From positions 1 through 64,000 of the IMG/VR virus record IMGVR_UViG_3300009168_000004: 64,000 bases of DNA; one strand, given 5' to 3'. Below are positions 4,647 through 17,236 of the stretch, piece after piece. The stretch comes from a virus. Every line of letters starts with the position of its first letter. Positions within the stretch are counted from its first letter, which is position 1. The translations under genes were made by a program, and so were the position numbers. The notes below the pieces were generated by a model. That model saw nothing but the letters and a program-made list of their open reading frames with translations, made no database searches and was not told the origin of the DNA.

Positions 4647-5693
4647 TCAACCGGCTCGCGTGGCTGACCTCCCCTTGAAGCGTTCGACCGAGTAGTCGTG
4701 GACGACGAAGCCGAGGGCGGCGTCGCCCCGCTCGTGCTCGGCGATCCACGTCTTGCCCTTCAGCGTCTCCCGCCAGAAGCCCCGGACCATGTGCCGCTTC
4801 CTGCGGGCCAGGGCCTGCACGCGGTCCAGGATCGTCATGGCCCGGATCGTCGGGACGGTCAGGGTGACGACAGTGTGCGAGATGAACTTCTTGTAGTTCC
4901 CCTTGGCCACGTAGCCCTTCGAGGGGTGGACTTCGCGGAAGGCGACGGGAAGGTCGTTGATCGTCGAGAGGAACGCCCAGAGATAGCGCAGGTCGCCGGC
5001 GAGCTCAGCGATCGGGTTGTGCTTCTGGATCTCGACCATCATCTGCGAGATGGTGGTCTCGATCAGGGGCGACGGCATGATCCCGACGTGGGGGCTCCTG
5101 TAGTGCAGGTCACCCGTGAGCACGCCCTCGACCGACGCCGTCGTCGTGGCCCGGTCGGGCTGCAGGTGCGAGGCGATCGGCATCTCCCGGTCCATGACCC
5201 TCCAGGGGAGGGGGTGGTCCTCCGAGCACCAGGCGTACGCCAGGAAGTGGGGCTGCGCTTGCTCGAGCGTCTCGTCGTGCGCACCGTAGGTGTGGCTGGC
5301 GCACTCGATCGCCGTGAAGGCGTAGTCGATCGTCGGGTGCTGGATGCACAGCCAGCCGAGGCGCGCGGGCATCTCCCCGATGGATGGGGGGTCCAGGAAC
5401 TGGGTGCCGATCTCGAGGGCCCTGCTGTGCCGGACCCTGGCGTTGTACTCGATCCACGTCACCCGGTGGGGCAGGCGAGACAGGAAGCGCATCGCGTTCA
5501 GCGACGCAGCCGTGTCCTCTCCGAGCCGATCCGCACCGCCGATGTCCGCGAGGAACGAACTCATCGAGTCGTCCATCACGAACTTGCGGGCTCCGGCCAG
5601 CGTCTCGGCGAACTTGCGCCCCCCGATCAGGTGCCCGTGCTTGGACAGGCACCGGCCGATGATCGCGTCGGCCAGGGTCGGGGGGTTCTTCAA
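4647..5693 (-). CDS. conserved-looking phage protein, 348 aa, function unknown
   Basis: 348-residue protein without a family I can name. The start is the TTG at 5693, chosen because AGGAGGG lies about five bases upstream and because it overlaps the stop of the cyclotransferase gene (TTGA). The N-terminal two thirds are mixed alpha/beta and rich in His and aromatic residues; the last 60 residues are basic (RRKRHMVRGFWRETLKGKTW, later ERGDAALGFVVHDYSV). The basic C-terminal block suggests nucleic acid contact. It belongs to the same transcription unit as the first cyclotransferase-like gene, the only hint of a shared role. Confidence 0.6.
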   Translation of the reverse strand: MKNPPTLADAIIGRCLSKHGHLIGGRKFAETLAGARKFVMDDSMSSFLADIGGADRLGEDTAASLNAMRFLSRLPHRVTWIEYNARVRHSRALEIGTQFLDPPSIGEMPARLGWLCIQHPTIDYAFTAIECASHTYGAHDETLEQAQPHFLAYAWCSEDHPLPWRVMDREMPIASHLQPDRATTTASVEGVLTGDLHYRSPHVGIMPSPLIETTISQMMVEIQKHNPIAELAGDLRYLWAFLSTINDLPVAFREVHPSKGYVAKGNYKKFISHTVVTLTVPTIRAMTILDRVQALARRKRHMVRGFWRETLKGKTWIAEHERGDAALGFVVHDYSVERFKGRSATRAG

Positions 5694-6184
5694 GCCACCC
5701 TCCTGTGGCTCTGGGTGCGCGCCCAGCTCAGCAGCCCGTCCGGGCCCGGTTGGACGTACCGGCTGCGCGGAACCTCGCCCCACGTGCGCGGCATGGGCTC
5801 GTAGACCCAAGCGATGTAGTCCTTCGGATCGCCGTCGATCCTGACCCGGCGCTTGACCCTGCGGTAGTGCCCGTGGGCTACGCCCTCGAGCCGGTCCATC
5901 GACTTCAGCATGTCCGCCTCGTCCGGGCCCTTCAGGTCGAAGACCTCGCCCCGGACCTGGGCTCCGCCGGGGTGCCCGTCACAGTTGAAGATGTAGGGGT
6001 AGCCCACGTTCTTCATCCGATACGTCGCCCTGGTCGTCGCCTCGCCCTGGAACGATGCTCGGTCCAAGTGCCAGTGGTTCCCATAACCTCTCATCAAGGT
6101 CCCGTACACAAACACCAGCGTCCGCTGGTCCCGGACCTTCGTCGGGGCGTTGCAGAACAAGATCGTGTCGCGCTTCGTCGTCAT
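5690..6184 (-). CDS. gamma-glutamylcyclotransferase-like (GGCT/AIG2) protein 1
   Basis: 164-residue protein of the GGCT/AIG2-like fold. It shows the family's substrate-cavity motif VFVYGTLMRGYGNHWHL and the LEG block (KSMDRLEGVAHGHYRRV) whose Glu is the usual general acid/base. Members cyclise gamma-glutamyl amines to 5-oxoproline or act on related isopeptide amides. The ATG at 6184 is preferred over 6202 because AGGAGAAGGCA precedes it. Together with the second GGCT gene (6590) and the amidoligase (7609), it suggests making and trimming of gamma-glutamyl or peptide tags, as proposed for phage amidoligase neighbourhoods. Confidence 0.8.
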   Translation of the reverse strand: MTTKRDTILFCNAPTKVRDQRTLVFVYGTLMRGYGNHWHLDRASFQGEATTRATYRMKNVGYPYIFNCDGHPGGAQVRGEVFDLKGPDEADMLKSMDRLEGVAHGHYRRVKRRVRIDGDPKDYIAWVYEPMPRTWGEVPRSRYVQPGPDGLLSWARTQSHRRVA

Positions 6185-6317
6185 TGCCTTCTCCTGTGCC
6201 ATTCAAATTCTCGAACGCCTGCCCGAGCTGGCGGGCCTTCAGCTTGGCGACCACCGCCCTCTCCGCCTCGCGAACGAGGCGGGACATCTCGGTGGCGATG
6301 GTCTCGCTGTCCCACAT
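5979..6317 (-). CDS. small helical protein; 3' part overlaps the GGCT gene out of frame
   Basis: Starts at ATG 6317, which overlaps the upstream stop (ATGA). The first 45 residues look like a genuine charged helix (MWDSETIATEMSRLV, EAERAVVAKLKARQLGQAF). The frame then stays open for another 205 bases inside the cyclotransferase gene, where composition looks like out-of-frame translation. Either the protein really has this long overlap, or a stop was lost by a frameshift near 6190. Only the N-terminal part is supported. Confidence 0.35.
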   Translation of the reverse strand: MWDSETIATEMSRLVREAERAVVAKLKARQLGQAFENLNGTGEGNDDEARHDLVLQRPDEGPGPADAGVCVRDLDERLWEPLALGPSIVPGRGDDQGDVSDEERGLPLHLQL

Positions 6318-6589: not shown

Positions 6590-7372
6590 TCAGGACGCCG
6601 CCTCCGCCGCCGGGGGAGGGAGCAGGATCGTGCCCTGCGCAGGCTCGGAGGTGTCGGGCTTGATCTCGTCGTCGGTCATCGAGGGCGACCGGGGCGTGAT
6701 GATCAAGTCCTTCGCCAGGTTCGGCGCACCGCGCTGGCGGTGCCGGTAGGCCAGGTACTCGGTCACGTCCTTGCCCGCCCAGCTCTGCTGCAGGGCGACG
6801 TCCAGGTAGGCCGGGTCGAGCCCACAGTCCACGTAGCCCTGCTCGATCGTCTTGAGGTAGGTCTCCGACGGGGGCTGGATGCCTTCGTCGTTCATCTGGT
6901 AGAACAGGACCCTGTAGACCTTCTTGTTGCCCCGGAGCTTGAAGTAGGACTTCCGGTAGGCCCCGGAGCCGACGCCCTCGTAGCGATCGAGCTTCGCCTC
7001 GTCCCGAGCCGTGATCGACCAGAGCGCACCGGGGCAGCGCGACCCCTCCTTGACCGTCACGTCGGCCACGCCCCGGAAGACCAGGGCGCAGTCGTCGACG
7101 TAGAGGGCGCGCCGGTACTTGGCACCGGGGCATCGCTTCTCCATCTGCGCCGCGTTCAGGTTGGAGCCGTAGGCCCAGTAGAGCTGCCGGACCTCGGGCT
7201 CCGGCCGGGTGCTCCGGACGATGGGCCGGTCCTTCCACACCCGCTCGGGCGTCAGCCGCTCCCTGGTGATGTCGTCGGCCCGGTCCTGCCAGGGCTCGCG
7301 CTTCGGGCCAGTGGTGGTCGGCATGTTGCGCTCGGCCATCCACTCGCTCAGGTTCTTGTATCCTCGTGCCAC
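6590..7372 (-). CDS. gamma-glutamylcyclotransferase-like (GGCT) protein 2
   Basis: 260-residue protein. A basic 65-residue N-terminal extension precedes a GGCT fold with the signature LYWAYGSNLN (YGSN loop) and the catalytic-type block KLDRYEGVGSGAYRK, whose Glu is the expected acid/base. After the domain (about 180 on) comes a C-terminal tail rich in Pro, Ala and acidic residues. Compared with the first GGCT gene this one has the canonical YGSNL motif and both termini are extended. It lies in one unit with a 77-residue gene and the amidoligase, supporting a joint role in building and cleaving gamma-glutamyl or amide linkages. The start is ATG 7372. Confidence 0.8.
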   Translation of the reverse strand: MARGYKNLSEWMAERNMPTTTGPKREPWQDRADDITRERLTPERVWKDRPIVRSTRPEPEVRQLYWAYGSNLNAAQMEKRCPGAKYRRALYVDDCALVFRGVADVTVKEGSRCPGALWSITARDEAKLDRYEGVGSGAYRKSYFKLRGNKKVYRVLFYQMNDEGIQPPSETYLKTIEQGYVDCGLDPAYLDVALQQSWAGKDVTEYLAYRHRQRGAPNLAKDLIITPRSPSMTDDEIKPDTSEPAQGTILLPPPAAEAAS

Positions 7373-7608: not shown

Positions 7609-8619
7609 TCAGCGAGCTCCTCGGTTGAAGTGCACCGTCCGGGCGGCGAAGTAGGACTTCTCCGCGTCGTCGGCCTTGATAGCGTCCATCAGCTCATCCA
7701 GGTTGGCAGCCTGCTTCGGGCCCTCCTTCGAGGCTGCCGAAATCTTCAGGCAGAACCTGACCCAGTTGATGACCTTCTCCGCCTCGACCGTGCCCTGGTG
7801 GTGGCGGAACTCGATCGTGCCGTGCTGCCAGAAGGACTGCAGGTTGACCTTCCGATAGCGGTTGCCGTCCCGCATCGCCTGCACACCGTGCCGGCGGAAC
7901 GACTCTGAGCTGCCGTTCGTGTGGTAGGCTGCCGCAGCGACCTGGTCCACAGTCTGGGCGGCCATCAGCATCATCACGTTGAACCGGATCGGCTGGCAGA
8001 ACATGTTGGCCGTCCCCCGTCGGGAGGGGCTCATGAACCGATCGATCGTCGACTCAGCCGAGGAGTAGAGCTGGATGACGTTCTTGAAGAAGTCAGCCGA
8101 CTCGCCGCGGGCACCGATGTGGACGTGCAGACCGCACCGGACCGTGACCTTGCAGCCCATCGCCTTGAGGGCGTTGCAGACCGTGCGGACCTGCTGGAAC
8201 CCAGCCTCGCCCTGGAGGGGAGGGCTGACCGCCTCAGCGCCGCGGTCGTAGCCGACGGACTGGTCGGTCACGATCTTCCAGTGCCGGCGGAGGGAGTGGT
8301 TGTAGCCCTCTTCGTGGCACTCGACGCCAGCCTCGGTCACCTTCCGGGCGCAGGTCGCCAGGGTCATCCCGGCGGGGCGGACGAACTCCAGCTCGACGCC
8401 GAAGGTGAAGGCGGCCAGGTCGTAGCCGACCGGGGCCGTCGGGGACGTCAGGGCTGACGTCTGACCGAGCTGAGCCCGGAGCCAGTTCAGCCGCTCCCGA
8501 CGGTAAGCGATCGTCTCGAGGGGGCCGTTGAGGGTGCGAACGCGGCGGACGCCGCGGGCCTGTGCGAGGGGAACGAGGTCGTTCCATTCCGCTTGAAGCT
8601 GACGAAGAACCGAAACCAT
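7609..8619 (-). CDS. COOH-NH2 amidoligase (amidoligase_2 family)
   Basis: 336-residue member of the glutamine-synthetase-fold amidoligase family PF12224. Landmarks: FGVELEF at about residue 73 (the metal-binding ExE strand), DQSVGYDRGAEAVSPPLQG at 119-137, KVTVRCGLHVHIGA (the HVH metal/ATP site), and WQHGTIEFRHHQGT (basic active-site strand). Such enzymes use ATP to join a carboxylate to an amine, making peptide-like bonds; their phage neighbourhoods were noted to contain GGCT and class II amidotransferase genes, both present here. The start is ATG 8619, with AGGAAAACAACGTC upstream. The N-terminal 60 residues are a helical extension. The substrate is unknown. Confidence 0.85.
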   Translation of the reverse strand: MVSVLRQLQAEWNDLVPLAQARGVRRVRTLNGPLETIAYRRERLNWLRAQLGQTSALTSPTAPVGYDLAAFTFGVELEFVRPAGMTLATCARKVTEAGVECHEEGYNHSLRRHWKIVTDQSVGYDRGAEAVSPPLQGEAGFQQVRTVCNALKAMGCKVTVRCGLHVHIGARGESADFFKNVIQLYSSAESTIDRFMSPSRRGTANMFCQPIRFNVMMLMAAQTVDQVAAAAYHTNGSSESFRRHGVQAMRDGNRYRKVNLQSFWQHGTIEFRHHQGTVEAEKVINWVRFCLKISAASKEGPKQAANLDELMDAIKADDAEKSYFAARTVHFNRGAR

Positions 8620-8681: not shown

Positions 8682-8713
8682 CCTGGCGGGGGGCGAAGAA
8701 GTTCAGTGGAGGC

Positions 8714-8745
8714 ACCATACAAGAGAAAAGTTTGCAGAGTGTCAA
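8714..8745 (-). promoter_or_regulatory. left-arm promoter family, member 6
   Basis: Minus-strand TTGACA (745-740 of the kilobase), 20 bases starting CTCTGCAAA, then TATGGT (719-714). It drives the amidoligase and second cyclotransferase unit, in tandem with the possible promoter at 8655. Confidence 0.6.
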
Positions 8746-8747
8746 CG

Positions 8748-8768
8748 GGGGCCGAAGCCCCCGATTTT
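8748..8768 (+). terminator. GC hairpin with T-rich tail
   Basis: GGGGGC-CGAA-GCCCCC hairpin followed on the plus strand by GATTTTATTTT; on the minus strand it lies just after the stop of the gene at 8773 with an A-rich side. It may act in both directions, separating that gene from the promoter at 8714. Confidence 0.5.
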
Positions 8769-8772
8769 ATTT

Positions 8773-9099
8773 TCAGGCCACCGGGTGGAAGACGGCGCAG
8801 TCAGAGTAGGCGCCCTTGATCTCGGTCCGGTACTGGTGGCCGTCGATCAGGACGACCTCGCCGTTGGTCAGGGCAGGCTCGACGTTCAGGCGGTCGATCT
8901 CGGCGCGGTCTGCATCGCTGTACGAGGACTTGATGCAGCCGGCGATCTGCATCGCCCAGTAGACGCCGTCGCCGACCTTCGCGTAGTCGCGGTAGAGGGC
9001 GGCGCGCATCGGCAGGTAGTCCTTGGCCCGACGGGGGTGGGCGACGTTGAAGGTGTTGACCTGGTCGAAGGAGCCGGTGGAGAGGGTGAGGGTGCGCAT
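8773..9099 (-). CDS. hypothetical protein, 108 aa
   Basis: 108-residue protein starting MRTLTLSTGSFDQV at ATG 9099, preceded by AGGACAACCCCG. Beta strands at both ends surround a helical middle (DRAEIDRLNVEP); no family is recognised. It is a monocistronic unit with its own promoter (9134-9165) and a terminator-like hairpin (8748-8768). Confidence 0.6.
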   Translation of the reverse strand: MRTLTLSTGSFDQVNTFNVAHPRRAKDYLPMRAALYRDYAKVGDGVYWAMQIAGCIKSSYSDADRAEIDRLNVEPALTNGEVVLIDGHQYRTEIKGAYSDCAVFHPVA

Positions 9100-9111
9100 C
9101 GGGGTTGTCCT

Positions 9112-9184
9112 GTGTCTGTGTTTCAGTGTCAGCACCATACTGCAAGAGTGTTTGCAGAGTGTTAACAGCAGAGACTTTGCAGAA
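9112..9184 (-). repeat. near-identical promoter/leader cassette, copy 1 of 3
   Basis: About 65 bases covering promoter, leader and the start of the upstream 3' region match the segments at 9391-9466 and 9771-9842 almost perfectly (TTTCAGTGTCAGCACCATAC on the plus strand, then the promoter and ACAGCAGAGACTTTGCAGA). The copy numbers suggest recent duplication of an expression cassette with different small genes attached. Confidence 0.8.
9134..9165 (-). promoter_or_regulatory. left-arm promoter family, member 7
   Basis: Minus-strand TTAACA (165-160 of the kilobase), 20 bases, TATGGT (139-134). The interior holds a dyad CTGCAA-ACACTC-TTGCAG. It drives the gene at 9099. Confidence 0.6.
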
Positions 9185-9189
9185 AATAA

Positions 9190-9384
9190 TCAGGCCTCGT
9201 CTCCGTTTATTTTTTGCATGGCTGCCACGCCCTCCGCGACGGTCATCGTGCCCGCGCCGACCGCCTCCATGACGGATCGCATGTCCGGGTTCATCCTGGC
9301 GCGGTGGCGGGCCTCTGCCTCCGGGTCGTGGGGTCGCGGGTTCTGCTGGCTCCAGCGTCCCACCGTCTTGTTTGGCTTTGCCAT
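9190..9384 (-). CDS. hypothetical protein, 64 aa
   Basis: 64-residue basic protein starting MAKPNKTVGRWSQQ at ATG 9384, with AAGGAACACGGAC upstream. The N-terminal 30 residues are Pro/Arg/His-rich and the C-terminal half is one helix (MRSVMEAVGAGTMTVAEGVA). It is a single-gene unit under the promoter at 9413. Function unknown. Confidence 0.55.
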   Translation of the reverse strand: MAKPNKTVGRWSQQNPRPHDPEAEARHRARMNPDMRSVMEAVGAGTMTVAEGVAAMQKINGDEA

Positions 9385-9390
9385 GTCCGT

Positions 9391-9466
9391 GTTCCTTTGT
9401 TTCAGTGTCAGCACCATACTGCAAGAGTGTTTGCAGAGTGTTAACAGCAGAGACTTTGCAGAAAAA
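9391..9466 (-). repeat. near-identical promoter/leader cassette, copy 2 of 3
   Basis: Matches 9112-9184 and 9771-9842 across leader, promoter and flanking sequence. Confidence 0.8.
9413..9444 (-). promoter_or_regulatory. left-arm promoter family, member 8
   Basis: Minus-strand TTAACA, 20 bases identical to member 7, TATGGT (418-413 of the kilobase). It drives the gene at 9384. Confidence 0.6.
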
Positions 9467-9537
9467 GAAACCGTCGGACCTCTTGGCGGCGCCGCGTGGC
9501 TAGCGGCCTTGCCTAGGATTGCTCCCGGGTCCGACGG
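9462..9537 (-). terminator. long-stem structured 3' element
   Basis: CCGTCGGACC (9471-9480) and GGTCCGACGG (9528-9537) form a perfect 10-bp stem enclosing 47 bases that contain further palindromes (GGCGGCGCCGC, GCTAGC, CCTAGG). On the minus strand it starts about eight bases after the stop of the gene at 9545 and is followed by TTTCTTTTTC, so it probably terminates that transcript. The complexity of the loop leaves room for a small structured RNA. Confidence 0.5.
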
Positions 9538-9544
9538 CAGGGCT

Positions 9545-9763
9545 TCAGACGCCGCGGGCGATCAGCTCGGCGTCGATCAGCATGGTCGAGAGGTGGTCCT
9601 CCATCTTGTCGACCCACTTGTCCGCGTAGCGGGCGGAGGCCGAGATCTCCAGGTGGTCGATGCAGAAGATGAACTTCTCGCCGGTGGCGAACCAGGCGCT
9701 CGCGTCGGCGATCGTCAGGACTTCCAGCTTCTTGGCGAGGTAGTTGGCGGTCGAGGTGGTCAT
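9545..9763 (-). CDS. hypothetical protein, 72 aa
   Basis: 72-residue protein starting MTTSTANYLAKKLE at ATG 9763, with AAGGAACACGCAG upstream. It has a helix, a short aromatic strand (GEKFIFCIDHLEIS) and a second helix; no family is recognised. It is a single-gene unit between the promoter at 9792 and the structured terminator at 9462-9537. Confidence 0.55.
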   Translation of the reverse strand: MTTSTANYLAKKLEVLTIADASAWFATGEKFIFCIDHLEISASARYADKWVDKMEDHLSTMLIDAELIARGV

Positions 9764-9770
9764 CTGCGTG

Positions 9771-9842
9771 TTCCTTTGTTTCAGTGTCAGCACCATACTG
9801 CAAGAGTGTTTGCAGAGTGTTAACAGCAGAGACTTTGCAGAG
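9771..9842 (-). repeat. near-identical promoter/leader cassette, copy 3 of 3
   Basis: Matches copies 1 and 2 across the leader, promoter and ACAGCAGAGACTTTGCAGA flank. Confidence 0.8.
9792..9823 (-). promoter_or_regulatory. left-arm promoter family, member 9
   Basis: Minus-strand TTAACA (823-818 of the kilobase), 20 bases identical to members 7 and 8, TATGGT (797-792). It drives the gene at 9763. Confidence 0.6.
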
Positions 9843-9843
9843 A

Positions 9844-9874
9844 AAAGATTGGGGGCTCCCGAAGGAGCCCCCGG
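9844..9874 (-). terminator. intrinsic terminator
   Basis: On the minus strand GGGGGCTCC-TTCG-GGAGCCCCC is followed by AATCTTTTC, a UUCG-capped hairpin with a U-rich tail just after the stop of the gene at 9880. Confidence 0.7.
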
Positions 9875-9879
9875 CCGGA

Positions 9880-10248
9880 TCACATCGCCCAGTAAGCCTC
9901 TGACGACGGGCTGCAGTAGCCCGGAGTGTTGCTGGCTTCCTGGTAGGCCTGGCCCGACAGGAGGTTGGTGCGGGTGACCGTGCGGACGACCTTCGTCGCA
10001 TAGTGGTCGATCGAGCAGGCGCCGTAGGGGCCAGGGCCGACGCCGGCGGTCCGGTTGTCGCCGTGGGTGCAGCCGTACTTCACGATGTCGGCAGCGTCCT
10101 TAGCGATCGCCCGCTCGTTGAACTTCCGGCAGGTCGCCAGGGCAGCGCCCAGGGTCTTGTACTTCTTCGCTTCGTGGGTCGCCGGGTTGCCGAACTTGGT
10201 GGGGCCGACCTGCATCGTCGAGGAGATGTGGTAGATTACGTAGGTCAT
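9880..10248 (-). CDS. hypothetical protein, 122 aa
   Basis: 122-residue protein beginning MTYVIYHISSTMQVG, then a basic helix containing KTLGAALATCRKFNERAIAK, then a Gly/Tyr/Ser-rich C-terminal half with a third Cys near the end (GYCSPSSEAYW). The pattern of a short strand, a gapped helix and 'K-A-L-T-A-x-N-x-x' resembles small phage proteins of unknown role. The ATG at 10248 is below the promoter at 10293 and above a strong terminator, so it is a single-gene unit. The leader pairs GGTGTCC at the promoter with the GGACACC at the ribosome binding site. Confidence 0.6.
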   Translation of the reverse strand: MTYVIYHISSTMQVGPTKFGNPATHEAKKYKTLGAALATCRKFNERAIAKDAADIVKYGCTHGDNRTAGVGPGPYGACSIDHYATKVVRTVTRTNLLSGQAYQEASNTPGYCSPSSEAYWAM

Positions 10249-10292
10249 CGGGGGTGTCCTGTTTGCCGGGGTTGGTCTGTTTCGGTATGGAC

Positions 10293-10324
10293 ACCATACA
10301 AGAGAACCTTCAACAGTCCATCAA
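10293..10324 (-). promoter_or_regulatory. left-arm promoter family, member 10
   Basis: Minus-strand TTGATG (324-319 of the kilobase), 20 bases containing TTGAAGG, then TATGGT (298-293). It drives the gene at 10248. Confidence 0.55.
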
Positions 10325-10401
10325 CGCGGGAAAAAATCAAGAGGAAAGTTTGGGGGCCGGACGGCGTGGTCAAAAGTCCGTCAACGAGGTCCAGCAAACG
10401 C

Positions 10402-10955: not shown

Positions 10956-10978
10956 GGATCAGCTCCCGGACGATGTAA
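10956..10978 (-). promoter_or_regulatory. TTTACATCGTCCG element inside the dCMP deaminase end
   Basis: The minus-strand sequence GTTTACATCGTCCGG matches the three elements of the control region at 16951-17217. It lies 190 bases above the zinc/helix-turn-helix gene, a plausible promoter or operator for it. Confidence 0.4.
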
Positions 10979-11477
10979 ACTCCTTCAGAAGCTTCACCTC
11001 GACGCCGGCCTCCCGGAACATGTCGCAGGCCAGCAGGGCCTTGCTCTGCCAGGGCTCGGCCTGCGGGATCTCCTCGCACACGACCCGTCGGACCCCGCAG
11101 GCGATGATGGACTTCGCGCACTCCTCGCAGGGGAAGAGCGTCGCCACCATCGTCGCCCCCTTCGTGTCGAACTTGGCGTTGTCGAGGGCGTTCCGCTCCG
11201 CGTGGATCGTGTAGAGGTACTTGGTCGCCCGGTGGTTCAGCCGGTCCTCCGTGTCCCTGAGCCCTGGCGGGAAGCCGTTGTAGCCGAGAACCAGGTCCCG
11301 ACGGTCGGCCCCGACCAGGACCGCGCCCACCTTGGTGCTCGGGTCCTTGCTGCACTGCTCCGCCCAGAAGTGGGCCAGCGCCATGTAGCGACGATCCCAC
11401 TTGTCCTGGTTCAGACGCGGCAGGCGGTAGTCCTCCTCGGGGCCTCCGAGCCCGCTGAGATCGATCTCATCGCCCAT
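10959..11477 (-). CDS. dCMP deaminase
   Basis: 172-residue zinc-dependent deoxycytidylate deaminase. The zinc and catalytic motifs are clear: HAERNAL (His ligand and proton-shuttling Glu) and FPCEECAKSI (two Cys ligands). Members convert dCMP to dUMP, feeding thymidylate synthesis and balancing pyrimidine pools. The start at 11477 (MGDEIDLSG) is chosen to limit overlap with the MazG-like gene, although ATG 11504 is possible. It is the last gene of the operon containing the thymidylate synthase homologue and the C5 methyltransferase. The 3' end contains a TTTACATCGTCCG element that may serve as a promoter for the next gene. Confidence 0.85.
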   Translation of the reverse strand: MGDEIDLSGLGGPEEDYRLPRLNQDKWDRRYMALAHFWAEQCSKDPSTKVGAVLVGADRRDLVLGYNGFPPGLRDTEDRLNHRATKYLYTIHAERNALDNAKFDTKGATMVATLFPCEECAKSIIACGVRRVVCEEIPQAEPWQSKALLACDMFREAGVEVKLLKEFTSSGS

Positions 11478-11928
11478 CGTGGTCACCGACGGGCTTCCCG
11501 GCATTCATCTCGTCGTACCACCACGCGATGCGGCGGTTCAGGATCGCCCGCTGGTCCGCGTCCGGGGGCTTCCACCCGGCGGGCTTCACCACGTCGAGCG
11601 AGTTCTTCCGCTTGGATCTGTCGTCGTCCCCGCCGGTCGCCCGCTCCTTCGCCATGTTCGCCCTCTGGACGGTGTCCCAGAGCTCGCCCCAGGGCAGCCC
11701 CATCATGTGCCCGGTGCCCAAGGCGACGTAGACGAGGTCGAGCAGCGCGTCCGCCGCCTTCTGAAGGCTGCCCTCCTCGACCGCCAGCTTGTACTCCAGC
11801 AGCTCCTCCATCATGAAGTCGAACCGGAACTTGCTGTCGCCCTCGCTGAGCAGCTTCGGCGGGCCGGCGTCCGACCGATCGAGCCCGAACTTCCTGTGGA
11901 AGGCGCCGACGTCTTCAAACATTCCCAT
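11467..11928 (-). CDS. MazG-like NTP pyrophosphohydrolase
   Basis: 153-residue all-helical protein of the MazG/PRA-PH superfamily. The metal-binding signature is visible as FMMEELLEYKLAV (EExxE-type) and, one helix later, DALLDLVYVALGT (ExxD-type equivalent), followed by the conserved VVKPAGWKPPD end. Such enzymes cleave NTPs or dNTPs to monophosphates plus pyrophosphate; in phages they are proposed to tune nucleotide or alarmone pools. The ATG at 11928 overlaps the end of the thymidylate synthase homologue by 14 bases and has AGGAGAAGCAGAATGGGA upstream. It sits between that gene and dCMP deaminase, matching a role in dCMP/dUMP supply. Confidence 0.8.
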   Translation of the reverse strand: MGMFEDVGAFHRKFGLDRSDAGPPKLLSEGDSKFRFDFMMEELLEYKLAVEEGSLQKAADALLDLVYVALGTGHMMGLPWGELWDTVQRANMAKERATGGDDDRSKRKNSLDVVKPAGWKPPDADQRAILNRRIAWWYDEMNAGKPVGDHDGR

Positions 11929-12772
11929 TCTGCTTCTCCTGTGCCAGGTAGGTGTCCATGTCGTTCTTGAAGACGTGGAGCGAGGTCATGTGCATACTGT
12001 AGGTCCAGGGCACGATCTCGTTCCACACCTGCGGGTTCAGCCGGCGGCACTGCTCGATGACCCAGAGCAGGAGCCGGACGGCGAGGTAGCAATCGTCGTT
12101 GTAGTGCCGGATGAGGTCGCAGGACCTGAGCGGATACCAGATCATCGCCCGCTTGTCCCGGACCATGATCTGGTAGCCCAGGGTGCAGACCTTTCGGCCC
12201 CCGTCGGACAGCCCCGTGTCCTCCGGGAAGAACAGCGGGATGTAAGCCTGCCTTGTGTGGGGCTCCCGAGCCAGCAGGTCGATCAAATCCTGGAGGTCCC
12301 CGTAACCATGGGCGATCCCGTACTTGGGCCGGTTGTCCACCGCTGGCCATTTGCGAAGCCCGTACTCGCCGGCCGGCGGCTTGGGCAGGACCCCATCGTC
12401 GGTCCGACGGGCGAACTTCGGCCAGAGCCGTTCCATGTACGTGTGGTTGAAGCGTTCGGTTTTGAACTTCGCTGCCGACAGGCCCCACGGCCACTTCGCC
12501 CACTGGGTTCCAGGGTTCAGGGGCTCGCCCCCGACGCGCTCGAGGAAGTGGTCGTCGGCCCACGGCCGATTGCAGTTCGTGTCCTGTCGCCAGTGCTCCA
12601 AGCCTTCGCCCCCGTGCAGGGGCACGCTCACGTTCACGTCCTGGAGCTCGAACGTGTCCGTGTTGACCGGGACGCCCTGCCACCGCTCAGTCTTGACCGG
12701 CGGGGCCTTTCTCATCTCCGCCTTCAGCTTCTCCCTCAGCTCCGTGAACGTCTCCGCTTGCACCGCCAGCAT
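11915..12772 (-). CDS. thymidylate synthase / dCMP hydroxymethylase homologue
   Basis: 285-residue member of the thymidylate synthase superfamily. The catalytic cysteine lies in GRKVCTLGYQ, the phosphate/dUMP-site segment is LRSCDLIRHYNDDCYLA and the late SLHVF block matches the family's C-terminal motif. Aligning RSCD without gaps to E. coli ThyA puts Asp where Asn177 reads the uracil base; Asp there is the hallmark of dCMP-specific hydroxymethylases. So dCMP (making 5-hydroxymethyl-dCMP) is as likely a substrate as dUMP. The start is ATG 12772, overlapping the upstream zinc-protein gene. It is in one operon with MazG-like, dCMP deaminase and the C5 methyltransferase. Confidence 0.75.
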   Translation of the reverse strand: MLAVQAETFTELREKLKAEMRKAPPVKTERWQGVPVNTDTFELQDVNVSVPLHGGEGLEHWRQDTNCNRPWADDHFLERVGGEPLNPGTQWAKWPWGLSAAKFKTERFNHTYMERLWPKFARRTDDGVLPKPPAGEYGLRKWPAVDNRPKYGIAHGYGDLQDLIDLLAREPHTRQAYIPLFFPEDTGLSDGGRKVCTLGYQIMVRDKRAMIWYPLRSCDLIRHYNDDCYLAVRLLLWVIEQCRRLNPQVWNEIVPWTYSMHMTSLHVFKNDMDTYLAQEKQNGNV

Positions 12773-13034
12773 ACTTCTCCGCCTCCATCTTTGCCCTGGC
12801 CTCCGGCGTCATCGCGTGGACCAGGAAGTTGCATCCGTCCTTCTTGATGTCGGTCACCACGCCGCACTTATCACAGGACCCCGTCTCAAAGAAAGTGTTC
12901 GCCTCCGACATGGTCAACCGCTGACCGCAGCCGGCGCAGGAGAACTTCTGGTACACGTCCGCCCCTCGAGCGATCGCATCGTTGGCTGCGATCACGACTT
13001 CGTCGAACGGGTGGTTGAGCTTATTCGCTGACAC
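12687..13034 (-). CDS. zinc-ribbon protein, 115 aa
   Basis: 115-residue protein starting at GTG 13034 (GTG overlapping the methyltransferase end, GGAG just upstream). Residues 26-55 carry CAGCGQRLTMSEA and CDKCG, two Cys pairs forming a zinc ribbon of the kind seen in small phage zinc proteins. The last 30 residues overlap the start of the thymidylate synthase gene and are Gly/Glu/Asp-rich. No enzymatic motif is seen. An adaptor or nucleic-acid-binding role for the modification operon is possible. Confidence 0.55.
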   Translation of the reverse strand: MSANKLNHPFDEVVIAANDAIARGADVYQKFSCAGCGQRLTMSEANTFFETGSCDKCGVVTDIKKDGCNFLVHAMTPEARAKMEAEKYAGGASGDVHGAEGEAEGGDEKGPAGQD

Positions 13035-14439
13035 TGGCTGGCTCCGTTGATTGGGGAACTCCCCGGGGAATTTTACGGGGAGTTCTGGGACTTCTTGTGC
13101 GAACGCGGGGAGCATCCTCAGTCCTGGCGGCGCGGGGCGGCGGGGCGATGGGCTTCATCCCGTACTTGTCCACCCGGACGGCGCACCGACGGGAGAGCCA
13201 GCAGGCCCCGCAGGCCTTCTTCTGGTCCGTGTAGCCCACGTTCTGACAGTACCAGGTCTTGGCCTCGTCCACGTGCTCGTTGGGCTGATTGACCCGCTCG
13301 CCCGTCGTCTCGAACGGCTCCTTCTTGATGTGCGCCATGATCTGCTTCGAGACGTACGTGCAGAACTGGATGGGCATGGCCTTGCCGGTCTGCCGGACCA
13401 TGTGCTGGTTCAGGTCGTGGCTCCACTCCCCGCGGTCGTTGAGGACGGTTCCGTAGAAGACGAAGTCGTCGGGGAAGCCCTGGATGCGGGCGCGCTCCCG
13501 GACGGTGTAGGGCTCGCCCCGGTGGAAGTGGACCGAGGCGTTGCCGCCGGTCAGGACGTGCGCCGGTCCGTCCCAGTGGCCCTTGAGGAACCCGATCCGC
13601 TTGACCATGGGGTTGTCGCCCCGCGCCGCCCGCTCCTTCTTCGACTCCTCGCTCGGGTGGTACTCCAGGGTGAAGCCGCCCTTCTTGTCGCGGAAGTACT
13701 CCTTCACCTCATCCCATGAGTTCTTCTTCCTGTACCTGCCGAGGTTCAGGGCGCGGAAGCAGTCCAGCGTCCCGTCGGCCGGATCGTGGTTTGGAAAGTT
13801 GCCGCGAGCCCTGGGCTCGGGCAGGTCGCCGATCACGTCCTTGACCTTCAGCGAGTGGACGGCCTCGCCGGGGATGAAGGTCCACTTCTCCTTCCGCAGC
13901 GCGCCCAGCATGAACATCCGGTCTCGCCCCTTCTGAACGTTGCCGTAGCCCCAGTTGCTGACCCACTCCGGGAAGAGGTCGTAGTCCGGCAGCAGCTCGT
14001 GATACTTCGCCATCGGGAACGCCATGAAGGACTTGGGCAGGTCGTCCATCACGAAGTACCGGGGCTTGAACTCCGCCACCAGCTCGCAGAAGAGCGGGAT
14101 GTCTGCGGGGTCGAACATCTTCTCGCGCTGGCCGGGGTTGGCTCCGGACAGGCGGCTGAAGTTGCCGCACTCCGGGTGGCCGAGGGCGATGTCCGCGTTG
14201 CTGAACCTCTGGAACTCCTCCTCGGTCATCGTCGGCCGGTCGTTCGGGAAGAGCGCACCGGGGTAGTTGACCTCGAAGGTGTTCTGCCCGTGGGCGTCCT
14301 TCTCGTGGTAGTACTTCCGCCACTCCACGTTGCCTTCGATCTTGAACCCGGCTGCTCGGGCTCCGATCAGCATCGATCCGATGCCGCAGGTTATGCCGAC
14401 GGCCCTGAGCTGGTCATCGGTCTTCGGTCGTCGAGCCAT
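13021..14439 (-). CDS. divergent C5 cytosine DNA methyltransferase
   Basis: 472-residue protein with most motifs of DNA C5 methyltransferases in order: motif I (GITCGIGSMLIGARAAGF, residues 15-32, SAM site), motif IV with the nucleophile as GHPECGNFS (Cys91, replacing the usual PPCQ), motif VIII as KGRDRMFMLG, motif IX as RERARIQGFPDDF and motif X around GKAMPIQF. The ENV motif VI appears as MDDLP, so it lacks the canonical Glu. The C-terminus adds a four-Cys segment (CQNVG, CGACWLSRRC) that may bind metal and a basic tail. It probably flips and modifies cytosine in phage DNA, but the transferred group is uncertain. Start ATG 14439, one base from AsnB's stop. Confidence 0.75.
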   Translation of the reverse strand: MARRPKTDDQLRAVGITCGIGSMLIGARAAGFKIEGNVEWRKYYHEKDAHGQNTFEVNYPGALFPNDRPTMTEEEFQRFSNADIALGHPECGNFSRLSGANPGQREKMFDPADIPLFCELVAEFKPRYFVMDDLPKSFMAFPMAKYHELLPDYDLFPEWVSNWGYGNVQKGRDRMFMLGALRKEKWTFIPGEAVHSLKVKDVIGDLPEPRARGNFPNHDPADGTLDCFRALNLGRYRKKNSWDEVKEYFRDKKGGFTLEYHPSEESKKERAARGDNPMVKRIGFLKGHWDGPAHVLTGGNASVHFHRGEPYTVRERARIQGFPDDFVFYGTVLNDRGEWSHDLNQHMVRQTGKAMPIQFCTYVSKQIMAHIKKEPFETTGERVNQPNEHVDEAKTWYCQNVGYTDQKKACGACWLSRRCAVRVDKYGMKPIAPPPRAARTEDAPRVRTRSPRTPRKIPRGVPQSTEPASVSE

Positions 14440-14440
14440 G

Positions 14441-15811
14441 TCAATACTGCTCCCCTGTGAAGATCATGACGAGCAGCTTACGATAGTCCTCGGGGGATCT
14501 GTCCACCTCCTTTGTCCGCAGGGGGATCTTGGGAGCTTCTGCGAGCCCCCTCGGCAGGTCTTCGCTGAACATCGCCCGCAGCAGCCCCTTGTCCCGACGG
14601 TCGATCCAGGGCACGCCCATCGCCCCCTCGACCACGGACCGGGCCAGGAATGGGGACCTCAGCTCGATCGCGTGCCGCATCATCACCCGGTCGAGCCGGG
14701 GCAGGTGCCACATGACCATCTCCTGGAAGATGTCGCTGTACTGAGAGTCGTATCGCATCGCTCGGCCGTAGCCGCCGAAGCACTCGTCGGCCCCGTCCCC
14801 GGTCAGGACCACGGGCTCGCTGATCGCGTTGGCCAGCGCAATCTGGGGGATCAGGGAGCCGAGGTCGACGGGCTCCTGCATGTAGTGCAGGCCCTCCTCC
14901 AGGGTTCCGGCCTCCCAGCTAATCACCTTGGCCTCCGCATCGTTCTCGTTCATCAGGAGCTGCACCCTAGCAAGCTCCTGCGCGTTCGTCAGGTCGGTGG
15001 GGTGCTCGACGGGCTGGGCGTAGTAGGGGACGACCTGGTCGCTGAACCTGCGGGCCAGGGTGTAGACGATCGAGCTGTCGAGCCCGCCCGAGACGAGGCA
15101 GGCCACTGGCACGTCGGCCGACAGGACCCGCCGCTTCGTGGCCTTCACGATCTCCTCCCTGAGGTCGTCGTAGTTGCTGTGCCACTGGGGCTCCAGCTTG
15201 TCGACGACCTGCGCGATGACTCGGCCCGACGGGAAGAGGCGCACGTACTCTCCGGGCAGGACCTTCTTGATCTCGTTGTAGGGCGTCCTCCGCTGGTCCG
15301 GGCAGTAGCCCCACTTGATGCAGGCGGACATGTAGACCTTGTCGAAGGTCACCGGACCGCGGGACTTCAGAGGGTCCAGCTCGGAGCAGGCGGCGACGAT
15401 CTTGTCGGCTCGGTAGTAGAGCGGCTTCTGCGCCAGGTAGTCGACCAGGCAGTGGAGAGACTCCTCGTTGGAGTTCAAGGCGACGATCGACCAGAAGCCG
15501 TCGTACTCGGTGAAGCCCATCGGGCCCTGGTCGATCCACGTGTCCATCGCGATGGTGCTGTCGCAGTCGGCTCCGGGGAAGCGCTCCCGGAAGTCCAGGA
15601 TCTCGCCGACGAACCCGACGGACCACCCCTTCCGGTGCATGGGCTGATCGTTCTCTGGCCCCAGGCCCACGATGGGCAGGCGGACGTGGCCGATCGCCCC
15701 CGTCCTGGTCTGGGCGATCCGGGGCTCACGCGTGCCCCTGTGCTTCATCATCTCCACCGCTGCCGCGATGTCCTCGCCCTTCGCGCCGAGCTCGGCGTAC
15801 ACTCCGCACAT
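14441..15811 (-). CDS. asnB: asparagine synthetase B (glutamine-hydrolysing)
   Basis: 456-residue asparagine synthetase. The mature N-terminal nucleophile is Cys2 (MCGVYAELG), starting a class II glutamine amidotransferase domain (about 1-190); the synthetase half has the PP-loop SGGLDSS (241-247) and LTGDGADECFGGY (336-348), which bind ATP and aspartate. It makes Asn from Asp with ammonia from Gln. Both active sites look intact, although it is shorter than E. coli AsnB (554 residues). The start is ATG 15811, after AGGAGAACTCA. Phage homologues are uncommon; here the gene heads the DNA-modification operon, so an amidation of another substrate (base or peptide) is also possible. Confidence 0.85.
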   Translation of the reverse strand: MCGVYAELGAKGEDIAAAVEMMKHRGTREPRIAQTRTGAIGHVRLPIVGLGPENDQPMHRKGWSVGFVGEILDFRERFPGADCDSTIAMDTWIDQGPMGFTEYDGFWSIVALNSNEESLHCLVDYLAQKPLYYRADKIVAACSELDPLKSRGPVTFDKVYMSACIKWGYCPDQRRTPYNEIKKVLPGEYVRLFPSGRVIAQVVDKLEPQWHSNYDDLREEIVKATKRRVLSADVPVACLVSGGLDSSIVYTLARRFSDQVVPYYAQPVEHPTDLTNAQELARVQLLMNENDAEAKVISWEAGTLEEGLHYMQEPVDLGSLIPQIALANAISEPVVLTGDGADECFGGYGRAMRYDSQYSDIFQEMVMWHLPRLDRVMMRHAIELRSPFLARSVVEGAMGVPWIDRRDKGLLRAMFSEDLPRGLAEAPKIPLRTKEVDRSPEDYRKLLVMIFTGEQY

Positions 15812-15949: not shown

Positions 15950-16216
15950 TCAGTCTGTCTTCTTGGCCGGCGGGCTCCGGGGCAGGAGCGGCTTCGCGTC
16001 CGGGTTGAAGAGGTTGCGGCCGGAGCCGAACGTGTAGTCCTCAGCGCTCCGGCTGCGACCTGGCATCCCTGCTGTGCGGCGGACGGGGCGCTGTGGGGGC
16101 GGAAGGTCCGTTATGAGGCGTGTGAGCTCCCTCTTGCTCCTCTGCCGGATCGCGTACAGCGCCAGGACGGCGACGACGAAGACCAGGATTGCGATTGCCC
16201 AAGCTATCGTGTTCAT
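15950..16216 (-). CDS. single-pass membrane protein, 88 aa
   Basis: 88-residue protein with an N-terminal hydrophobic helix (residues 4-23, MNTIAWAIAILVFVVAVLAL), then a basic Arg/Pro-rich cytoplasmic or periplasmic tail. It lacks a lipobox. Size and topology are compatible with a small inner-membrane protein, a spanin-like partner or an exclusion factor, but none of these is shown. The ATG at 16216 overlaps the upstream stop (ATGA), so it belongs to the 16928-15950 unit. Confidence 0.55.
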   Translation of the reverse strand: MNTIAWAIAILVFVVAVLALYAIRQRSKRELTRLITDLPPPQRPVRRTAGMPGRSRSAEDYTFGSGRNLFNPDAKPLLPRSPPAKKTD

Positions 16217-16485
16217 TTGTCTCTCTGTGCTTCTGGAATGCCGAGGTGTGCGTACCCGGCGATGTCGTCCCAAGTATCCTTCAGGTCCGGGTCGCCCGTG
16301 AGCAGGCGGTGGACTTTGTGCGCGATCATCCGGAGCGAAGCCCTCTGCCCCCGGCTCATCGCCTGCCAGTTCTTGGCCTTCTCCCAGATCTCGATCGTGG
16401 CCTCGCTGATCTCCGCTCCGTCGTCCCAGTTGCCGTGCGTCGACTTCCGCTCTTCTCGAAGTTCCTTCGTCGTGCTCGTAGACAT
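16213..16485 (-). CDS. DUF6378-like protein, 90 aa
   Basis: 90-residue helical protein. The segment SLRMIAHKVHRLLTGDPDLK followed by DTWDDIAGYA matches the recurring pattern of the small phage family DUF6378, whose function is unknown. The start at ATG 16485 overlaps the upstream stop. It is coupled to the uracil-glycosylase-like gene before it and the membrane-protein gene after it. Confidence 0.65.
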   Translation of the reverse strand: MSTSTTKELREERKSTHGNWDDGAEISEATIEIWEKAKNWQAMSRGQRASLRMIAHKVHRLLTGDPDLKDTWDDIAGYAHLGIPEAQRDK

Positions 16486-16928
16486 CAGTATCGTCCTTGG
16501 TACAGGTCAAGAAGGAGCAGGCCGACCAGCGCCCGCACCGTCGGGTCGTTGTAGAGCAGCGTCCGGCCGGAGGTGTGCGGGATCAGCCGCCAGATCACGC
16601 CGTCCACGAGCTGTGGGTGTATCAGGACTTTTTCAATCTTCCGTGAAAGCCGGTGGTTCAATTCCGCCCTGACCTCATCGCCCAGGACTACGACCGTGGT
16701 CCCGACGGGAGCGTGGAGCCGGAGCTCGAAGGGGTGGTCCAGGATGTTGCGGCGGCGGAACGATCGCTCGTAGTCCACGCTGCTGATGGTCGGGGCCACA
16801 TCCTTGATCAGCCGCCAGAGCCGCCACCCGGCGGACCGGATCGGGGTCGCGCACAAGGCGTCGATCGGGCGATCCGAGTGGGGGTTGGTCAGACCCAGCA
16901 GAAGCGGGGAGGTCTTCGGTTTGGCCAT
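16485..16928 (-). CDS. uracil-DNA-glycosylase-fold protein (putative)
   Basis: 147-residue protein resembling the uracil-DNA-glycosylase fold seen in some phages: LLLGLTNPHSDRPIDALC near the N-terminus (the GMNPP-like loop), a middle strand TTVVVLGDEV, and a C-terminal RLIPHTSGRTLLYND (like HPSG-x-x-x-W/YN). These correspond loosely to the water-activating and DNA-binding motifs, but the canonical Asp/His catalytic pair is not obvious. The start at ATG 16928 has AGGG upstream; GTG 16937 is possible. It lies at the head of the leftward unit read from the control region at 16951. An active DNA glycosylase is therefore not certain. Confidence 0.5.
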   Translation of the reverse strand: MAKPKTSPLLLGLTNPHSDRPIDALCATPIRSAGWRLWRLIKDVAPTISSVDYERSFRRRNILDHPFELRLHAPVGTTVVVLGDEVRAELNHRLSRKIEKVLIHPQLVDGVIWRLIPHTSGRTLLYNDPTVRALVGLLLLDLYQGRY

Positions 16929-16936
16929 GAGCTGCA

Positions 16937-17236
16937 CCCTGAACCGAACCGCGAACGATGTAAACTACGGGTAGAGCCTTGGTAAGAAGAATGCGGACGG
17001 CGCCGGGGCTCGCACTCCCAGCTTCGGGCTTCGCTCTTGGCACAGGAGCATTCGTCCTGGGCAGGCCGAAACGCACACTGCGGGCGAGAGGAACCAGATG
17101 GACTAGTTCCCAGCGCAGCAGCAAAGCCCTACCGCCAGGTCTGGACATTGGGGTCTAGGGCGAACGATGTAAACCTCGGTTAACCATGCACCCGCAATAG
17201 GTTTACATTGTCCGCGTTTCGGCTAAGACTGCCCCG
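16937..17236. promoter_or_regulatory. divergent control region (300 bp, no gene)
   Basis: Three copies of the element TTTACATNGTNCGC occur here: minus strand at about 16951-16965 and 17160-17174, plus strand at about 17203-17217. The outer copies extend as TTTACAT-N-GT-N-CGCG-N-TTCGG and sit as -35-like boxes 11 to 30 bases before the two divergent first genes (16928 and 17237), with TCAGGG and TAAGAC as the best -10 candidates at 16 bases. The inner minus and plus copies form a 9-bp inverted repeat (ATGTAAACC/GGTTTACAT). This looks like the repressor-controlled switch between leftward and rightward transcription, and the XRE protein encoded at 18879 is the natural candidate regulator. Confidence 0.6.

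Follow-up and report, generated by a model that had tools for sequence, protein, structure and literature searches.

A phage operon with a lysine-type DNA C5-methyltransferase homolog and an asparagine synthetase homolog: a candidate two-stage route to an amide-bearing cytosine

Introduction

Here we describe a six-gene phage operon in which a divergent DNA C5-methyltransferase (MT) homolog with an invariant lysine is accompanied by an asparagine synthetase homolog (AsnB) and by a thymidylate synthase (TS)-fold enzyme that has an aspartate at its base-reading position (TS-Asp). Together the genes may encode a two-stage hypermodification of cytosine that ends in an amide, a reading to which we give an even chance. 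Phage DNA hypermodifications guard against host nucleases and are a source of DNA-labelling enzymes. All functional statements made below are derived from sequence, from fold and from the linkage of genes. In the open-access literature that was searched (subscription papers and preprints being outside the scope), no description of this gene set was found.

Genome and operon organization

The DNA analysed, called here the window, is a stretch of 64,000 nucleotides (positions 1 to 64,000 of IMG/VR record IMGVR_UViG_3300009168_000004). The contig that bears it is 75,335 bases long (75.3 kb; contig C31 of G000), and its first 123 bases are the same as its last 123. From this end repeat it appears to represent an entire circular phage genome. 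It was binned with a bacterial assembly of 5.77 Mb, and because a complete circular phage contig lies in a bacterial bin, the host of the phage is uncertain. The contig encodes a terminase, a portal, a major head protein, a tape measure, a primase and a DNA polymerase. The phage is taken to be a tailed one.

The initial annotation had described AsnB, a C5-MT, a zinc protein, a TS-fold enzyme, a MazG-like NTPase and a dCMP deaminase as one operon. All six open reading frames were found on the minus strand and in this order, which confirms both the genes and their grouping in one operon (Table 1). The AsnB and MT genes are separated by a single base and the later junctions overlap by 95, 86, 14 and 38 bases; good Shine-Dalgarno-like sequences precede AsnB, MT, TS and MazG. 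Pfam matches bear out the identities given to AsnB, the MT, MazG and the deaminase. The TS-like protein has no Pfam match and was recognized by its PHROG match and TS fold instead.

Table 1. Operon genes and neighboring features of the window
Feature	Position in window	Strand	Matches and remarks
Six-gene operon	10959-15811	-	
AsnB-like class II glutamine amidotransferase / AMP-forming amide ligase, 456 aa	14441..15811	-	PF00733 4.9e-33, PF13522 2e-9
Divergent Lys-type DNA C5-methyltransferase homolog, 472 aa	13021..14439	-	PF00145 2.8e-17
Small CxxC/CxxC protein, 142 aa	12687..13115	-	Overlaps both neighbors
TS-fold enzyme (TS-Asp), 285 aa	11915..12772	-	PHROG 160 1e-21
MazG/PRA-PH all-alpha NTP pyrophosphatase	11467..11928	-	PF01503 1.8e-13
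dCMP deaminase	10959..11504	-	PF00383 3.9e-23, PHROG 174 3e-45
DUF6378-like small protein, upstream of AsnB	16213..16485	-	PF19905 1.5e-5, below cut-off
Small protein of unassigned function	16485..16937	-	PHROG 12275 1.6e-12; 1-base overlap with the DUF6378-like gene
Five copies of a 45-nt repeat	8702-10325		Spaced 279-501 bases, between small genes
Amidoligase_2 protein	7609-8619	-	PF12224 1.3e-42; just downstream of the operon
Gamma-glutamyl-cyclotransferase-like protein	6590-7372	-	Downstream of the operon
Gamma-glutamyl-cyclotransferase-like protein	5690-6202	-	Downstream of the operon

Several further features lie next to the operon (Table 1). The Amidoligase_2 gene, which was not found in the relatives, and the two cyclotransferase-like genes have the same orientation as the operon, and a tie to the modification is possible. 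Three of the five copies of the 45-nt repeat extend to 85 nt with 88-100% identity, and the repeats are possibly repeated promoters or leaders.

The TS-fold enzyme

The enzyme had been noted to have Asp at the position equivalent to Asn177, as expected for dCMP rather than dUMP, and an alignment had been named as the means to judge whether this is the base-reading residue. The alignment was run and the proposal held: Asp227 stands at the base-reading position in 86/86 relatives, aligned with Asn in solved TS chains and with Asp in MilA, a CMP hydroxymethylase. The nucleophile Cys196 and the phosphate-binding Arg174 and Arg216 are equally invariant (86/86), and the family has Thr or Ser at the position of E. 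coli His147. In the T4 enzyme, Asp at the base-reading position protonates N3 and sets the specificity for dCMP (PMC6400193). In MetaGPA, Asp177 was enriched in the TS of modified-cytosine contigs, alongside the PRA-PH and dCMP deaminase domains, and position 147 was the second discriminating position (PMC8670742). A cytosine substrate for TS-Asp is well supported by these residues and by the nearest fold neighbors, all of them CMP or dCMP enzymes, and the enzyme is predicted to be a dCMP hydroxymethylase or a dCMP hydroxylase. The relatives were found by an alignment-based scan of viral contigs; a scan with the single sequence retrieved none.

Similarly to T4 dCMP hydroxymethylase (gp42), TS-Asp combines the TS fold with a Cys nucleophile and Asp at the base-reading position, and an NTP pyrophosphatase and a deaminase are encoded nearby. 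The two proteins, however, are distant in sequence (15% in the structure alignment), and no glucosyltransferase was seen among the genes of the window operon.

The Lys-type methyltransferase

An alignment-based scan gave 42 viral MT loci, and the MT alignment comprises 45 sequences, the window MT included and some of them near-identical. The most telling residue is Lys353, which the initial annotation had overlooked: it occupies the position of HhaI Asn304 in 45/45 sequences. Asp132 takes the place of Glu119 (the Glu of ENV), likewise in 45/45. Since the median pairwise identity among the relatives is only 42%, the invariance of both residues is informative. The catalytic Cys91 is found in 43/43 sequences. 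A PEC loop in place of PPC had been reported, and it is indeed there as HPEC (residues 88-91), with E90 kept in 41/43 and HPE/D-C-G standing where PPC is expected. As to the reported MDD instead of ENV, motif VI is altered, but the register was off by one residue, as it is D132-D133-L134 that aligns with E-N-V. The GxG is kept and followed by Ser22. At the F18 position there is Thr or Ile in place of an aromatic residue, and there is no conserved D60, which makes the cofactor pocket hard to assign. The replacement of HhaI Asp16 by Gly was considered as a special mark of the protein and rejected, as HaeIII also has no Asp there.

The protein has the fold of C5-cytosine methyltransferases with a Cys nucleophile and the QxRxR motif. 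Its AF2 model (pLDDT 90.6) was matched by Foldseek to HaeIII (6e-17), to CmoX (8YF3, 1e-14, rank 16) and otherwise to C5-MTs. Fold, catalytic Cys and motif order are shared with HaeIII and HhaI, whereas motifs IV, VI and X and the F18 position are altered and a C-terminal Cys4 extension has been added. The latter has the pattern C-x11-C-x2-C-x5-C (residues 398-419), with Cys in 37/45 sequences at each column and the exact spacing in 30/45; it is absent from the L008-type subgroup and may possibly hold zinc or an iron-sulfur cluster.

In the tree, rooted at midpoint and containing several long branches, the Lys clade comprises 43 rows with support 98/94, while a long branch of its own carries CmoX. 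Judged by sequence, the window MT is a member of a distinct phage clade of C5-MT homologs. The nearest outgroup is the MT of L084 (4821-5942), which is encoded beside TS-Asp and has Asn in motif X and Glu in motif VI; a scan for more relatives of it found L084 itself only. Another related MT beside TS-Asp, in L128 (8300-9325), also has Glu in motif VI and, by a weak alignment, Lys. Both can be seen as useful intermediates. Matches of the MT in named phages were only distant, which also holds for AsnB, and no isolated phage with the module was among the phage records searched. A pattern scan of bacterial genome contigs found no relatives, nor were any found in the one other genome of the genus.

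Some members of the clade are of interest on their own. The MT gene of L096 (2892-5054) matches intein/Hint and DUF559 endonuclease-like models and seems to be intein-bearing. L035 (8806-11468) and L038 (4422-6829) each have two different Lys-type MT copies in tandem, perhaps with different target sequences.

AsnB and the smaller genes

AsnB has the ligase domain and the N-terminal glutaminase Cys (PF00733, PF13522). Cys2 is kept in 40/40 sequences and SGGxDS in nearly all of them, which makes plausible the earlier suggestion that AsnB donates an amide group. It is predicted to amidate a carboxylate with ammonia from glutamine. The predicted role of the MazG/PRA-PH protein is the removal of dCTP or of nucleotides related to it. 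The 'zinc protein' does exist in the operon as an open reading frame with two CxxC motifs, but it is no part of the conserved set. It had no PHROG match and a Pfam match only below threshold, and since its single relative, in L020, lies away from the module on that contig, the protein is placed outside the conserved module.

Gene linkage in related contigs

Linkage was analysed in 38 non-redundant loci, including the window, all of which have the MT by construction. AsnB was found in 36/38 loci, TS-Asp in 34/38 and dCMP deaminase in 31/38; where AsnB or TS is missing, the locus mostly lies on a short contig or at the end of one, and in L044 the TS sits elsewhere on the same contig. MazG of the window type occurs in 14/38 loci, and in 16 others a different NTP pyrophosphatase is encoded between AsnB and the MT. 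A dNMP-kinase-like gene was found in 10/38 loci, a DUF6378-like gene near AsnB in 12/38 and a PHROG 12275-type gene near AsnB in nine.

Seen from the side of TS-Asp, the majority of its 80 loci have no MT. AsnB was found in 0/26 contigs with TS-Asp and no MT, and in 0/5 named phages (Fisher p = 6e-16 for the AsnB linkage, uncorrected for kinship and made optimistic by shared ancestry). It is also absent from the L084 contig (37.7 kb) and the L128 contig, L084 being the one contig on which the link between an Asn-type MT and the lack of AsnB is based. From these reciprocal counts it follows that AsnB accompanies the Lys-type MT, which in turn accompanies TS-Asp.

Comparison with known systems

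The closest parallel is the CmoX/CmoY system. In CmoX of Synechococcus phage S-B43 the counterpart of HhaI Asn304 is Arg350, which touches the carboxymethyl group of Cx-SAM, a compound made by CmoA; the engineered M.MpeI N374K likewise accepts Cx-SAM (PMC12783734, Nat Commun 2025). CmoY is an asparagine synthetase homolog that forms the amide on cytosine C5 after CmoX, and the glutaminase domain present in one large CmoY cluster points to ammonia as the substrate (PMC12783734). Common to this system and the window are an asparagine synthetase homolog, a C5-MT homolog that is basic where HhaI has Asn304, and a predicted amide on the C5 substituent. Lys353 falls on the Arg of CmoX in the profile alignment, and AsnB has the domain composition of the glutaminase-bearing CmoY cluster; with hhalign it matched the GATase-bearing CmoY homolog of Streptomyces phage TurkishDelight at 2.4e-30.

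The two systems nevertheless differ. CmoX has Arg, SPPC, Glu in motif VI and an aromatic residue at F18, whereas the window MT has Lys353, HPEC, Asp and Thr/Ile, belongs to a separate clade and has no neighboring CmoA. TS-Asp, the NTP pyrophosphatase and dCMP deaminase are present in the window system; TS-Asp is absent from TurkishDelight and S-B05, in both of which CmoX relatives were found, and also from FpV9, which has a related MT. Having neither the SPPC nor the Arg of the definition, the window MT is not a CmoX as defined, and in outline it would work like CmoX/CmoY. The tree, with its midpoint root and long branches, makes a convergent origin of Lys and Arg likely.

The MetaGPA phages with TS-Asp and a carbamoyltransferase, which have 5-carbamoyloxymethylcytosine (PMC8670742), are similar in their base layer of TS Asp177, PRA-PH and dCMP deaminase. 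In the window, by contrast, the second layer consists of the Lys-type MT and AsnB. A carbamoyltransferase was rejected as second layer, its C-terminal domain PF16861 being found in 0/50 contigs tested.

Proposed pathway

In the first stage, at the nucleotide level, MazG and dCMP deaminase would lower dCTP and dCMP, and TS-Asp would add a substituent at position 5 of dCMP. The product, most likely 5-hydroxymethyl-dCMP, would then be phosphorylated and incorporated into DNA. In the second stage, on DNA, Cys91 of the Lys-type MT would attack C6 of the modified cytosine, and Lys353 would position a carboxylate-bearing group that ends up on the 5-substituent. AsnB would then activate the carboxylate with ATP and convert it, with ammonia from glutamine, to a primary amide.

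The nature of the group that is added is a guess: a small carboxylate-bearing nucleophile, for instance an amino acid, may be added to the methylene formed from 5-hydroxymethylcytosine (5hmC), which we hold to be possible though doubtful. A chemical precedent for a nucleophile at the methylene in the absence of a methyl donor is the ability of C5-MTs to join thiols to 5hmC (PMC7176277). The full Cx-SAM-independent route, in which a C5-MT fold, transferring no methyl group, joins such a nucleophile to 5hmC of DNA and a dedicated AsnB amidates the product, is slightly more doubtful.

The initial annotation had proposed a cytosine modified partly before and partly after polymerization. This proposal is broadly right. 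It fits Asp227, the way in which MT, AsnB and TS-Asp stay linked across dozens of diverged phage contigs, and the parallel with CmoX/CmoY. The support is partial, as the MT signature had been read out of register, the zinc protein stands outside the conserved set, and Lys353 and the missing CmoA had not been considered. Against the pathway, Lys353 could have another role, the cofactor pocket of the MT is hard to assign, the linkage counts share ancestry, and Cx-SAM may come from the host or a non-homologous enzyme.

Alternative explanations

A variant of CmoX/CmoY would use precisely such Cx-SAM: the Lys-type MT would carboxymethylate cytosine, at C5 or at the hydroxyl of 5-hydroxy- or 5-hydroxymethylcytosine, and AsnB would amidate the product. 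In its favor are the Lys that, as in M.MpeI N374K, occupies the position where the carboxylate is bound, the same pairing of an MT with an AsnB homolog, and the glutaminase domain shared by AsnB and many CmoY relatives; moreover, CmoA is typical near CmoX and not universal, and E. coli CmoA can supply CmoX with Cx-SAM (PMC12783734). On the other hand, the CmoA model found nothing in the whole assembly, in the 11 first relatives or in 24 further contigs of up to 160 kb, although it recovered CmoA of TurkishDelight (1.3e-26) as a positive control. With L084 and L128 outside the Lys clade and three of the 24 contigs already among the first 11, this covers about 30 Lys-clade contigs, many of them fragments, against 4257 CmoA found alongside 5615 CmoX (PMC12783734). 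Phage-made Cx-SAM was therefore rejected, and it is probably not the donor of the MT. The CmoA cut-off was not reached by any of 58 genomes from the same bacterial family, a soft result, as weak matches occur and the cut-off is so strict that only E. coli of 14 controls passes it. The Phe that stacks on adenine in CmoX is Thr/Ile in the window clade, and TS-Asp, missing from the two CmoX phages, accompanies the Lys-type MT. We consider this variant unlikely.

Less probable again is plain modification with nucleotide supply, where TS-Asp would produce nucleotides of 5hmC or 5mC, the MT would be an ordinary methyltransferase or an inactive relative that protects specific sites, and AsnB would be a metabolic gene. 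Many phages do have TS-Asp, dCMP deaminase and an NTP pyrophosphatase with neither MT nor AsnB, and the MT retains its catalytic Cys and GxG. Yet Lys353 and Asp132 are invariant only in the AsnB-bearing clade, AsnB was never seen with TS-Asp alone in the 26 contigs mentioned above, and the adjacency of AsnB and MT is kept across a large divergence. Lowest of the three we place the possibility that TS-Asp is, like AfhB, a dCMP 5-hydroxylase giving 5-hydroxycytosine DNA, the 5-oxygen of which is decorated by the MT and AsnB. The best profile matches of TS-Asp were to AfhB (chains 9iqu/9iqc, 8e-18), but in the order of fold neighbors (MilA, AfhB at ranks 3-4, T4 dCMP hydroxymethylase) MilA and the T4 enzyme are equally near, and the TS-Asp family keeps RSCD, as do folate-dependent TS, where AfhB has RSQN. 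As TS-Asp is as near to AfhB as to the dCMP hydroxymethylases, the first product of the two-stage pathway may not be 5hmC.

Implications

If true, the two-stage pathway would be a second, apparently CmoA-independent answer to the problem solved by CmoX/CmoY, carried out on a cytosine that has been modified beforehand. It would have Lys353 and Asp132 as its active-site signature together with a defined set of partner genes, and it predicts a cytosine amide that has not yet been described.
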